DNA of 64,000 nucleotides from Gammaproteobacteria bacterium (lineage in GTDB: Bacteria; Pseudomonadota; Gammaproteobacteria; Arenicellales; Arenicellaceae), in contig JAFMHC010000002.1 of the NCBI GenBank assembly GCA_017854775.1, forward strand, positions 1 through 64,000, given 5' to 3'. A model generated the notes under the pieces. That model made no database searches and was not told the DNA's origin. It saw only the letters and a list, made by a program, of their open reading frames with translations. Numbering within the stretch: the first letter of the stretch is position 1; each line of letters opens with the position of its first letter. Below are positions 2,306-38,940 of the stretch, in pieces. A program made the position numbers and the translations under genes.

Positions 2306-2544
2306 GGTTGTTTCCTGTTTCTAAAACATAGCGTTGAGCTTGCTAGTTTAAGCTTTTATGCGGTTTGTGTGCGGTAAATTGTAGCGGGCGATGCGAATGC
2401 TGGTTATTTGAAATAACGGGTTTTGTGCCGGAGAGGTTTTAAGGCGAGATAATATTTCCTGCTAATTTGAATCTAAAAACGGTAAAACGGCATCTAAGCG
2501 TATAAGGACATTATTTAAATTCACGCTAACACGAGGGAAACTTT

Positions 2545-2895
2545 ATGAGCGCATTAATTACCACCACGTCTAATATCGGCAGCAACGAATATAAAACCCA
2601 CGCATTGGTTTCCTATATTTTATTAGCAATCGGTTTATTTACCGCGATCCCGCTGCTTTTCGGCGCGATTTGGGCAATGATTCAAAAGAAAGGCGCCGTC
2701 GGCACCGTTTATCATAGCCATCTAGTTAACGCCACGCGGGTATTCTGGTGGAGTCTGTTTTGGACAATTATCGGTGCGATCTTTGCCGTCATATTCATTG
2801 GCTATGCTATTTGGGCGGTAACATGGTTGTGGGTTCTTTACAGAATTGTCGATGGTTTGGCAAAAATCTTATCCGACCAACCTTACCCTGTTTAG
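2545..2895 (+). CDS. Small membrane protein, DUF4870-like
   Basis: 116 aa, three predicted TM segments, HLVNATRVFWWSLFW...RIVDGL pattern. Confidence 0.7.
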   Translation: MSALITTTSNIGSNEYKTHALVSYILLAIGLFTAIPLLFGAIWAMIQKKGAVGTVYHSHLVNATRVFWWSLFWTIIGAIFAVIFIGYAIWAVTWLWVLYRIVDGLAKILSDQPYPV

Positions 2896-34497: not shown

Positions 34498-34828
34498 TCA
34501 CTGATCTTAACATGAGGTTGCTCCGAATGAGCTCGCCTTACTCTATTCGGTCGCCCGCCATCGGGGCTTCAATTTTACTTATTGCGACACCGTTGTGCCA
34601 CGCCAAACCGACCGAAAACCATGCGTTGTCATAAAAAATATTTAGTGGTTTCATGATCCGCAGTAATTCGACCTAGCGCTTTCGCTATCAGCACCATCGC
34701 TTCAAGCATTTGATTTTTAAGAGATTTTTAAATAAAAAATTCTTTTGAATCCAATTTATTGAAAGTAGCATCTAAGTTTATGTAAGCAGCAATCATGCGG
34801 CTAAAAAACATAACTGGAAAAAAATATC

Positions 34829-35101
34829 ATGAAAAACCTATCAATCAGCCTAGCACTTATCGTAGCGTTATCAGCAAGCCAAGGCGCGTTTGCGGAACTA
34901 AAACAGATTAGTCAAAGCCCCACTTCGGGAATCGAAAAAATCGTCGTTGTTGCGCAACCAGAAGTTGCCAATTTTGAAATCTTCAGCTTAAAGCGCGGTG
35001 AGCAAGCAATACATCAAATAATGGATATCGTTGCTGATAGCTTAGATAACAAAAAGACGGTAACAGTTCAGCAATCTTCAAAAAATGATATTTCAATTTA
35101 A
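34829..35101 (+). CDS. Small secreted protein of unknown function (copy 1)
   Basis: 90 aa, signal peptide MKNLSISLALIVALSASQGAFA; near-identical to copy 2. Confidence 0.75.
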   Translation: MKNLSISLALIVALSASQGAFAELKQISQSPTSGIEKIVVVAQPEVANFEIFSLKRGEQAIHQIMDIVADSLDNKKTVTVQQSSKNDISI

Positions 35102-35177
35102 TGTCGGTTAACACCGTTGAAGACTGTAAATCGGAGTTTTTTAAAAACCCCGATTGTTCACAAAAAGAGGTAACTTA

Positions 35178-35211
35178 TAAATTGGATGCATTCTAAACAG
35201 CATCCAATTTA
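35178..35211. other. Hairpin 3' of small ORF copy 1
   Basis: TAAATTGGATGC (35178-35189) / GCATCCAATTTA (35200-35211). Confidence 0.6.
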
Positions 35212-35325
35212 TTGTTGGTTAAGTAAGCCTCATTGCTTGTCCCCCCATTGTTTAACTTCATCACTTGTCACCCTTTCATCACTTAGCACCCTAAGAGTTA
35301 GCAGGCAAATCAACCTGATTGATCA

Positions 35326-35709
35326 TTAGCTCCCCGCCACTTTGATTTTCGATAGCACGTTGCCAGACGATTTTTCTATTTGCTGACGCAGTTCAGCACC
35401 CTGACCGAGCATCTGCAAAAAATCCTTAGTATGGAGCACTAAAAACGTTCTAAAACCATCCAAAATCACACTGGCTATGCGCGTTGTTTGTTGCAGCAAG
35501 GCCATCCCCTCAAAGCAATCACCACTTCCAATAAGGATAATTTGTTTATCCGGCACAACTCGGATCGCACCCGAGCAAATAAAATCCTTAGCATCTGGCG
35601 GGCCGCCTTTTTCAGAAATGGCCTCGCCTGACAGAGCTAATCTAGGTTTCATCAATTTGGCCATATCAAGCAGAATACTACTTATTGCAACGCCTCTGTG
35701 CCACGCCAA
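35326..35709 (-). pseudogene. Duplicated 3' fragment of the Na+/H+ antiporter gene (cyclic nucleotide-binding domain remnant)
   Basis: DMAKLMKPRLALSGEAISEKGGPPDAKDFICSGAIRVV... aligns to the C-terminus of the 36373-38940 product; the conserved GE of the binding cassette reads EG. Confidence 0.85.
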
Positions 35710-35933
35710 ACAGGTCGAAAACCAAGTGCTAGCCTACCACTGATTTTTGCTGATTTCATGATACCTAGTAATTCGACCTAGCACTTTCGATATTGGCACC
35801 ATCGATTCAAGTGTTTGATTTTTAATCATTTTTTAAATAAAAATCTCTTTTGAATCCAATTTATTGAAAGTAGCATCTAAGTTTATGTAAGCAGCAATTA
35901 TGCGGCTAAAAAACATAACTGGAAAAAAATATC

Positions 35934-36206
35934 ATGAAAAACCTATCAATCAGCCTAGCACTTATCGTAGCGTTATCAGCAAGCCAAGGCGCGTTTGCGG
36001 AACTAAAACAGATTAGTCAAAGCCCCACTTCGGGAATCGAAAAAATCGTCGTTGTTGCGCAACCAGAAGTTGCCAATTTTGAAATCTTCAGCTTAAAGCG
36101 CGGTGAGCAAGCAATACATCAAATAATGGATATCGTTGCTGATAGCTTAGATAACAAAAAGACGGTAACTGTTCAACAGTCTTCAAAAACTAACGTTTCG
36201 ATTTAA
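35934..36206 (+). CDS. Small secreted protein of unknown function (copy 2)
   Basis: Same as copy 1 except for the C-terminal SSKTNVSI. Confidence 0.75.
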   Translation: MKNLSISLALIVALSASQGAFAELKQISQSPTSGIEKIVVVAQPEVANFEIFSLKRGEQAIHQIMDIVADSLDNKKTVTVQQSSKTNVSI

Positions 36207-36280
36207 TGTCCTCCAACACCATTAAAGACCTTAGGTCGGAGGCTTATACGAGCTCCGACTTACTTCCCAAAAGTAGTAAC

Positions 36281-36320
36281 TTATAAATTGGATGCCATTT
36301 AAACAGTATCCAATTTATAA
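36281..36320. other. Hairpin 3' of small ORF copy 2
   Basis: TTATAAATTGGAT (36281-36293) / ATCCAATTTATAA (36308-36320). Confidence 0.6.
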
Positions 36321-36372
36321 TCAATTTAGTAACCCATCTTAAGTAAGCTAATCAGCCCTATCATTTAACCGA

Positions 36373-38940
36373 CTAGTCAGCTTGATTGATCATTAGCTCC
36401 CCGCCACTTTGATTTTCGATAGCACGTTGCCGGGCGATTTTTTCTATTTGCTGACGCAGCTCAGCATCCTTATCAAGCATCTGCAAAAAATCCTTAGTAT
36501 GGAGCACTAAGAGCTCGCTAAAACCATCCGAAATCACACTGGCTATGCGCGGTTTTTGTTGCAGCAAGGCCATCTCCCCAAAGCAATCTCCACTTCCAAT
36601 AATGATAGTTTGTTTATCCAGCACAATTCGGATCGCACCCGAGGAAATAAAATACATAGCATCTGGCGGACCGCCTTTCTCAAATATGACCTCGCCTGGC
36701 AAAGCTAATCTAGGTTTCAGCAATTTGGCTATATCTAGTTGGGCGGTTTGCTCCAAATTCTCAAAGAAGGTCATTTTAGACACCAGTGTATTTGCGTCCA
36801 GACCCAAGTCGAGAGTGAGTTTTTGATTTAACTCACGGTAGCGCTCGCTCATACCCTCCTTTAATTCACTGGCAACTTCTTTGCTAATCAACGAACTGGC
36901 TAGCATGTCTTTGTATTGGTTCTGTTCAAGTCGCATGGCAGTTTGTTGTAACGCCCTTTTCTCAAGTGCTCTGGCGTACTCTGGGTAACCAGCGCGAAGC
37001 ACATCCAGTGCTTGCTCAGTTTCGAGGTCACGACGTGCTAATAATTTTTGCAGTTTGCTTGCCACGTCAGCGCCAAGCATGTCGCCGAGTTGAATTACAA
37101 CATTATCTCTGAGTTCATGTAATACCGTGCACTCGGCTTCCAAAACCTGAAAGCGGCTGGCTAAATTATTAGCCAACATTGGTGAATACCCAAACGTACG
37201 TTGAATCCTCATTGCCAGTTTAGTATGCCAATGAAAACCGAGTTTGCGGCGATAATCATCGAGATAGGCATCAAGCCCGCGATGTTTGATGCTATCGCTT
37301 AGATCGGCTGCCAGCCGGAATAGACTGCGTGCAGTATCAGGAGAAATCTCACCGCGATCTAACATCCTTGCGTAAGCTTTGTTCTCATTCATGCAAATCA
37401 TACGCAGGCCAATCAGCAGCCAATCTTCATCGCTTAAACTATTGTCTGAGACTTTGTTTGAACTGGCTTTTATTAATTGCTCATAGGGTTGAATAACCTG
37501 TTTGGTTCTGGTTTCACCGATGTGCATAGCACGCGGGGTCTTTTTGACTCGCTCGCTTACGCTAGCCATTGCTTTTGAGAACGCTCGGTCGCGAATCGCC
37601 GCATCAGCAGGCCCAAGATTGGCTAGGCCAAAGGCGCGCATTACCAGTGACACCGTGGTGGCATTAATGGCTAAGGTGAATAACACAAAGCCTGTCACCA
37701 TGACGCCTAAAAATTCTTGTATCTCTGGCGCAAAACCATCGTTTTCTATTACCGCTAGTGCCAAAGCTAGAGACACCGCACCACGTAGGCCACCCCAGAA
37801 CATCACCGCTCGGTAACCAGTACTTACTTGCGCCGACCAACCCAAGCGGCTCATTATCGGCACCAAACCAAAGATAATTGCGAAACGGGCAACAAAACCA
37901 GCCAGCAAAAGCACCGCCAGCCAGATAAATTGCTGGCTGTCCATGGCCGCCATTATCGATGGCACTTTCAAGCCAACTAGAATAAAGATTACCGAATTAG
38001 CCACGAAGCCAATCTGCTCCCAGACTTCTTCTAGCCCGTGCCAAGCGCTTTGAGTAATCACACTGCGACCACGAGAGCCAAGCACCAGCGCAGCAGTCAC
38101 TACGGCCATAACACCGGACACATGTAAGCTGTGCTCAGCAATTATGAAAGATAGATACGCGAGAGAAATAGTTAGGGTAATTTTAGGTAAGTTGGAATCA
38201 CCGATATGCACTAACAAGAAGCAGATAAGTCGAGCCGTGAGATAGCCGACGATGATGCCACCGAAAAATACTTTAACAAAAGAGCCTAAGCCACTTAACA
38301 AAGTAGGGTCAGACTGACCCAGTAGCATGGCAGAGATAATGGTGAATACCACAATCGCGGTAGCATCGTTGAATAGGCTTTCGCCTTCTACCAGAATAGC
38401 TAAGCGCTGCGGCGCACCTAGATCTTTGAAAATCGCCACTACGGCAACTGGGTCGGTGGCGGACACAATCGCGCCCAACAATAAGCAAGCTAATAGTGGA
38501 ACGTGGGTTATATAGGCCATGGTGAAACCAATCACCGCAGTCGAAATGAGCAAGCCAACAATCGCCAACATTAAAATCGGCGATATATCATCGAACAAAC
38601 GTCGCACGTCAATTGATAACGCAGACTCAAATACCAGCGCCGGTAAAAAAACGAAAAACACCGCTTCTGAGGTTATCTGCATTGAATTCAATGCCAGAAT
38701 AAATTCATGCAAAAAACCGAGCTCTGGTAGCCGTAATACAAACTCCGAACCGAGGCCGATTAACACGCCGACTGCGGCTAACATAACCGTAAAAGGGATT
38801 TTGAGCCTAGCCGCCAACGGCACAACCAACACAGCCAAGGCAAGCAAACCAGTAATTCCAAACACCAACAACATCGTGTGGTGATCAGCCGTTTGGGCTA
38901 TCTGAGCCGCTTGTTGAACTGAGTCGGAGGCGTTATTCAT
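36373..38940 (-). CDS. CPA1-type Na+/H+ antiporter with C-terminal cyclic nucleotide-binding domain
   Basis: Antiporter core (LLGAIVSATDPVAVVAIFKDLGAPQRLAILVEGESLFNDATAIVVF); CNBD phosphate-binding cassette GDCFGEMALLQQKPRIASV. Confidence 0.93.
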   Translation of the reverse strand: MNNASDSVQQAAQIAQTADHHTMLLVFGITGLLALAVLVVPLAARLKIPFTVMLAAVGVLIGLGSEFVLRLPELGFLHEFILALNSMQITSEAVFFVFLPALVFESALSIDVRRLFDDISPILMLAIVGLLISTAVIGFTMAYITHVPLLACLLLGAIVSATDPVAVVAIFKDLGAPQRLAILVEGESLFNDATAIVVFTIISAMLLGQSDPTLLSGLGSFVKVFFGGIIVGYLTARLICFLLVHIGDSNLPKITLTISLAYLSFIIAEHSLHVSGVMAVVTAALVLGSRGRSVITQSAWHGLEEVWEQIGFVANSVIFILVGLKVPSIMAAMDSQQFIWLAVLLLAGFVARFAIIFGLVPIMSRLGWSAQVSTGYRAVMFWGGLRGAVSLALALAVIENDGFAPEIQEFLGVMVTGFVLFTLAINATTVSLVMRAFGLANLGPADAAIRDRAFSKAMASVSERVKKTPRAMHIGETRTKQVIQPYEQLIKASSNKVSDNSLSDEDWLLIGLRMICMNENKAYARMLDRGEISPDTARSLFRLAADLSDSIKHRGLDAYLDDYRRKLGFHWHTKLAMRIQRTFGYSPMLANNLASRFQVLEAECTVLHELRDNVVIQLGDMLGADVASKLQKLLARRDLETEQALDVLRAGYPEYARALEKRALQQTAMRLEQNQYKDMLASSLISKEVASELKEGMSERYRELNQKLTLDLGLDANTLVSKMTFFENLEQTAQLDIAKLLKPRLALPGEVIFEKGGPPDAMYFISSGAIRIVLDKQTIIIGSGDCFGEMALLQQKPRIASVISDGFSELLVLHTKDFLQMLDKDAELRQQIEKIARQRAIENQSGGELMINQAD

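Follow-up and report, generated by a model that had tools for sequence, protein, structure and literature searches.

Concerted evolution of prokaryotic paralogs by gene conversion (PMC6053082) leaves the copies of a gene within one genome far closer to each other than are their flanks or any ortholog. A comparable pattern is found in a stretch of 64,000 nucleotides from a marine gammaproteobacterium of the genus Arenicella, family Arenicellaceae (contig JAFMHC010000002.1, positions 1 to 64,000; the window), where a gene for a small secreted protein occurs twice within a tandem duplication of ~1.1 kb. Unlike the concerted evolution described previously, the present case concerns one genome and one recent tract, and this tract extends over a very small gene, from its promoter into the coding region. 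The locus is probably (at about 0.72) the product of an old tandem duplication of a gene regulated by an extracytoplasmic function (ECF) sigma factor, selection on the 5′ coding region as well as the promoter, and a gene conversion event that recently covered this expression unit. It would then be a small, naturally occurring example of recombination and selection working jointly on an expression unit of ~320 bp as the rest of the duplicate decays.

ECF sigma/anti-sigma regulons of the RpoE-RseA and RpoE2-ChrR type provide the second point of comparison. The system found in Arenicella has in common with these a short sigma factor with regions 2 and 4, an apparently autoregulated operon, a small membrane protein, a bipartite promoter of fixed spacing and targets of the envelope type (HlyD/RND adaptor, outer membrane efflux protein, ABC exporter and CPBP-like protease). 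It differs in that a DUF6249 gene comes first in the operon, the promoter reads TGAATCC-N17-ATCTAA, the sigma factor falls below every NCBIfam equivalog cut-off listed and, within the order, the system was found in Arenicella alone. Small periplasmic stress proteins, namely BhsA (DUF1471) and, as functional analogues, CpxP and Spy, resemble the duplicated product in their signal peptide, mature protein of ~70 residues and stress-type promoter. The family is nonetheless unlike BhsA/DUF1471, the model of which matches the small protein below its cut-off (E 0.085; 13.4 bits against a cut-off of 90), and comparison with Pfam, NCBIfam, PHROG and the PDB yields no significant family. The advance lies in the regulatory context: an orphan secreted family is tied to a defined regulatory system, being under predicted genus-specific ECF sigma control, duplicated and recently homogenised.

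A Homogenised Tract Within a Diverged Duplication

The two units (Table 1) align from end to end, with 136 of the 1061 ungapped columns different, and the ~1.1-kb duplication that a sequence-only reading of the window had proposed is thus confirmed. That reading had also held that the copies differ by a single base across the leader and coding region, synonymous sites included. Indeed, only one mismatch is found in the 324 bp of the tract (C at 34794, T at 35899), and codons 1-78 of the small gene, with 51 synonymous sites, are free of any difference. Outside the tract, the 737 ungapped sites have diverged by 18.3% (22% in the left flank, 17% in the right flank and 10% in the part derived from the antiporter's cyclic nucleotide-binding domain, CNBD), which agrees with the earlier description of the spacer and antiporter-derived fragment as diverged. 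Divergence along the units is not uniform: the longest run with at most one mismatch is the observed 324, against a mean of 53 and a maximum of 123 when the mismatches were permuted 20,000 times.

The tract begins 5 bp upstream of a promoter that the sequence-only reading had overlooked, TGAATCC-N17-ATCTAA, and ends abruptly within the gene. Codons 79-90 contain eight differences between the copies, four of them synonymous (over eight synonymous sites), and the contrast between codons 47-78 and 79-90 (0/96 vs 8/36 differences) is marked (p 1.6e-5; p 0.005 for synonymous sites alone). This near-identity, which includes synonymous sites and breaks off sharply within otherwise diverged copies, is the pattern expected of gene conversion. 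As had been read, both units carry the same small open reading frame (ORF), although the two proteins are not identical, differing at three of their last residues (NDI / TNV).

Table 1. Coordinates of the duplicated units and associated features in the window.
Feature	Position	Strand	Remarks
Duplicated unit A	34571-35670	.	Holds the first small-gene copy between its upstream region and a spacer, then the truncated CNBD fragment; aligned pairwise with unit B
Duplicated unit B	35674-36738	.	Holds the second small-gene copy between its upstream region and a spacer, then the 3′ end of the intact antiporter gene
High-identity tract, unit A	34741-35064	+	Promoter to codon 78-79 of the small gene's 90
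High-identity tract, unit B	35846-36169	+	Counterpart of 34741-35064
Small secreted-protein gene, copy 1	34829-35101	+	90-aa ORF; predicted Sec signal peptide ending AFA (by eye)
Small secreted-protein gene, copy 2	35934-36206	+	90-aa ORF
ECF-type promoter, copy 1	34746-34775	+	TGAATCC-N17-ATCTAA; recovered by position weight matrix (PWM) from ECF-operon promoters alone
ECF-type promoter, copy 2	35851-35880	+	Identical in sequence to copy 1 promoter; same PWM
Third motif site	2468-2497	+	46 nt upstream of ORF 2545-2895
116-aa membrane-protein gene	2545-2895	+	Conserved regulon member; the motif recurs at its orthologs elsewhere in Arenicella
Hairpin 1 after copy 1	35129-35155	+	z -2.7
Hairpin 1 after copy 2	36232-36262	+	z -3.9; sequence diverged, hairpin kept
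Hairpin 2 after copy 1	35177-35212	.	AAATTGGATGC...GCATCCAATTT; between convergent genes; z -4.5
Hairpin 2 after copy 2	36281-36320	.	z -5.7
Decaying CNBD (cNMP-binding domain) fragment of antiporter (pseudogene)	35326-35709	-	PF00027 E 4e-7; extends past junction near 35671
Intact Na+/H+ antiporter with C-terminal CNBD	36373-38940	-	PF00999 and PF00027; orthologs in 5 Arenicella genomes

Promoter Motif and Predicted ECF Regulon

Alignment of the regions upstream of the small-gene homologs reveals the promoter motif at a fixed spacing, 48-64 nt before the start codons, in 10 of 11 homologs, and these lie at differing genomic places. In the 18 Arenicella genomes, TGAATC-N18-RTCTAA matches 121 times, against 17 for a reversed control. 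TGAATC-N16-GCATCTAA occurs 75 times across 17 of these 18 genomes and once in the 91 other genomes of the order, and the stricter motif with its spacer lengthened by 2 bp, a control for spacing, is absent from all 109. When a PWM was trained solely on the 12 exact promoters of the sigma operon described below, just three sites in the window exceeded 12 bits (2465, ahead of the 116-aa gene, 34743 and 35848). Because two of these precede the small-gene copies, both copies are predicted members of the autoregulated ECF regulon. In many of the regulon promoters (L088-L127), transcription would also start into a common sequence resembling GYTTATNAGAACA directly after TCTAA, which may belong to the promoter itself or serve as a signal in the RNA.

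The same motif precedes an operon at G000:C148:1569-3342 (L091), conserved in Arenicella, that encodes a DUF6249 protein, the ECF sigma factor and, last, a small membrane protein with two apparent helices. The sigma factor has 188 residues, with region 2 (PF04542, 4e-13) and region 4 (PF08281, 9e-9); it scores above the cut-off of TIGR02937 and under that of every NCBIfam equivalog listed. It is present in 16 of the 18 Arenicella genomes; completeness is 78% and 85% in the two that lack it. No other genome of the order yields it at the threshold used. Upstream of the operon, 12 of the 16 genomes have the exact motif, and the four most diverged have variants of it; judged by sequence, the operon is thus apparently autoregulated. 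A small protein (110-158 aa) follows the sigma factor in all 16 operons. In G000, this protein has 132 residues, two transmembrane helices apparent by eye and no Pfam family, and it is a putative anti-sigma factor.

Along with the sigma operon itself and the adaptor, efflux protein and protease named above, the motif-bearing ortholog sets comprise an ABC ATPase, a DUF4386 protein, the 116-aa membrane protein, a secreted protein of ~170 aa and a protein in which an SGGS motif is repeated (by eye similar to DUF4097, Pfam giving no match). Among the papers searched, none treats this Arenicella regulon, and in them an ECF regulon that is specific to the genus, with some dozen conserved targets behind a sharply defined motif, appears to be undescribed. 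As the small family is linked to one sigma factor, its function is testable by stress induction and sigma deletion.

Mechanism and Alternative Explanations

Upon envelope disturbance, the ECF sigma factor (G000:C148) would transcribe both copies from their identical promoters, and the two-helix protein encoded after it would act as the anti-sigma factor. Duplication of a regulon gene would thereby double the dosage of one regulon output. Selection would hold the promoter and coding region similar, and for this reason homology would suffice for RecA-type recombination. A recent non-reciprocal exchange would then have wiped out the differences in the tract, leaving the spacer and CNBD fragment to drift. 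Such exchange between the copies, aided by conserved sequence, is the simplest account of the tract. The sequence-only reading had likewise proposed an old duplication followed by conversion or by selection on the small gene; the duplication, decay and homogenised tract stand, but conversion and selection are not strict alternatives here.

Several observations weigh against this explanation. The source genome is fragmented, with 381 contigs at 92.7% completeness, and the two copies of the tract share 270 bp of exact repeat. Synonymous divergence in the 5′ part of the gene is also low between other species, and part of the identity may thus reflect nucleotide-level constraint. A second homolog in G007 is the sole one without the motif, and the anti-sigma assignment follows from the position of the 132-aa protein and its two apparent membrane helices only.

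The first of these points raises the possibility that the assembler merged small differences between the copies, or applied one consensus to both, such that their identity is overstated. Exact identity of this length at a spacing of 1.1 kb is the type of repeat that short-read graphs collapse. Bubble merging by assemblers is normally limited to very similar sequences, however, and given this limit the flanks would still show much more divergence than the tract. Additionally, the single-nucleotide difference at 34794/35899 was retained. The first CNBD copy also argues against a merged allele, as it is a decaying pseudogene. With the antiporter orthologs from four further Arenicella genomes taken as outgroups, polarisation assigns 23 changes to this fragment, 21 nonsynonymous and two synonymous, against five (two nonsynonymous) on the intact gene; it is weak at synonymous sites because the outgroups are distant. 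Those on the fragment include the changes G to E and E to G that convert FGE to FEG, bearing out the loss of the conserved GE noted earlier in a CNBD detached from its antiporter, and the fragment also carries a 1-bp indel. The decayed copy and the real junction argue that the assembler did not create the tandem arrangement by joining the alleles of two strains. An artefactual identity is considered unlikely.

Alternatively, the copies may have been kept identical with no conversion, by purifying selection at the nucleotide level on the promoter, leader, early coding region and codon choice. Ortholog pairs give omega values of 0.12 and 0.05, indicative of purifying selection, and the synonymous divergence (dS) of the small gene lies below that of its neighbours in both G007/G009 (0.28 vs 0.9-1.0) and G006/G015 (0.49 vs 1.8-2.1; Fisher p ~1e-5 each). 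Between G006 and G015 (L028 1653-2040 vs L030 7353-7740), identity is ~97% across the promoter, the leader and the first 46 codons and falls to ~80% thereafter, which makes this a second anomalous block of low divergence for the family. The proportion of differing synonymous sites (pS) is 0.12 in codons 1-46 and 0.60 beyond, beside neighbours near synonymous saturation. Other regulon genes exhibit a weaker form of this pattern (pS 0.37-0.54 in the first 46 codons vs 0.68-0.78 in the rest; the 116-aa gene pair was left out of this comparison). In general, the 5′ part of the small gene thus seems to be under nucleotide-level constraint or frequent exchange. Since 5′ synonymous divergence is low in other Arenicella pairs, constraint probably explains part of the identity at that end. 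It is insufficient for codons 47-78, because these hold no differences in 96 positions where codons 79-90 hold 8 in 36: the constraint in G006/G015 stops near codon 46, whereas identity in the window extends to codon 78 and then stops abruptly. Moreover, synonymous sites are saturated between the small gene of the window and that of G003 (pS 0.82). Selection by itself is accordingly rated as slightly less likely again than an assembly error.

A third alternative is that the small gene and its promoter were recently replaced, through horizontal transfer or re-duplication, and not exchanged between resident copies. The family is indeed found at unrelated sites among species, adjoining tdk in G005, G006 and G015 and typA in both G007 and G009 (in G007 a CobW-like GTPase as well), and lying elsewhere in G003, G004 and G017. 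Blocks of low divergence also begin at the promoter in other species pairs. Between G007 and G009 (L024/L025), divergence is ~5-8% from the small-gene promoter into the downstream region, with typA at a dS of 0.9 and upstream sequence reduced to noise, and this drop at the promoter suggests a recombination boundary. Similarity is just as high on the downstream side, and the event in this pair may therefore have been a regional one. In the window, by contrast, the tract ends within colinear duplicated sequence, as exchange between the two copies would give; furthermore, no third copy or donor is present in the source genome, and no relatives were found in viral contigs. Replacement is consequently regarded as improbable, and inter-copy gene conversion is retained as the preferred explanation.

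The Small Secreted-Protein Family

Homologs of the small gene occur in nine of the 18 Arenicella genomes (eight besides the source genome) and in none of the 91 other genomes of the order; a first scan of the genome collection with a single small protein as the query had given no match. The proteins are short and of the Sec type, and share a core of approximately I-[ED]-x-I-x-V-x-[SA]-x-P-x-x-A-N-[FY]-E-[IV]-[YF]-S within sequence that changes rapidly between species. An AlphaFold model of the family (mean predicted local distance difference test score, pLDDT, 53) has a single helix apart from the signal peptide; its confidence is low, and it was not used for a fold search. The product would be exported by Sec and would serve as an accessory protein in envelope stress, either periplasmic or extracellular; this role is a prediction. 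The sequence-only reading had concluded that the peptide probably matters to the cell. The low omega values in two ortholog pairs favour this claim, and the presence of the gene in only half of the Arenicella genomes and its fast sequence change speak against it; support is therefore weak.

A segment resembling a TonB box follows soon after the signal peptide (IEKIVVVA, IETIVVTS and IDTITVVS, by eye; receptors of the same genome have LEEIVVTA). It is conceivable, if very doubtful, that the proteins are stress-induced periplasmic peptides that bind TonB and so lower TonB-dependent uptake under envelope stress. Homology to the TonB box was rejected, as a profile of the mature family against 3,749 ORFs, including retrieved loci of TonB-dependent receptors, gave a best receptor E of 9. 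A phage origin was rejected as well, with no relatives in viral contigs and no significant PHROG family, plasmid and phage GenBank records being outside the search.

Flanking and Minor Features

Hairpins downstream of both copies are retained despite divergence of their sequence. Rfam leads in the region are weak and under the gathering score (BTnc060, 38.6 vs 228.9 bits).

The small gene was also considered as a component of the antiporter locus, and this too was rejected. The antiporter is conserved in related genomes, being 81-83% identical in G003, G004 and G005, where the small gene does not adjoin it and lies elsewhere. Other genes instead fill the interval between the flanking hydrolase and the antiporter: in G003 this is an SDR gene, in G005 a set of dnaJ/hipBA-like genes.

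Next to the small gene in G003, a gene for a secreted protein of 1182 aa ends in 15-bp tandem repeats (L023 5911-6068). The second copy in G007 (L027 7078-7353), which may be under other control, is followed downstream on the same strand by a secreted protein of 322 aa and then an ABC transporter.

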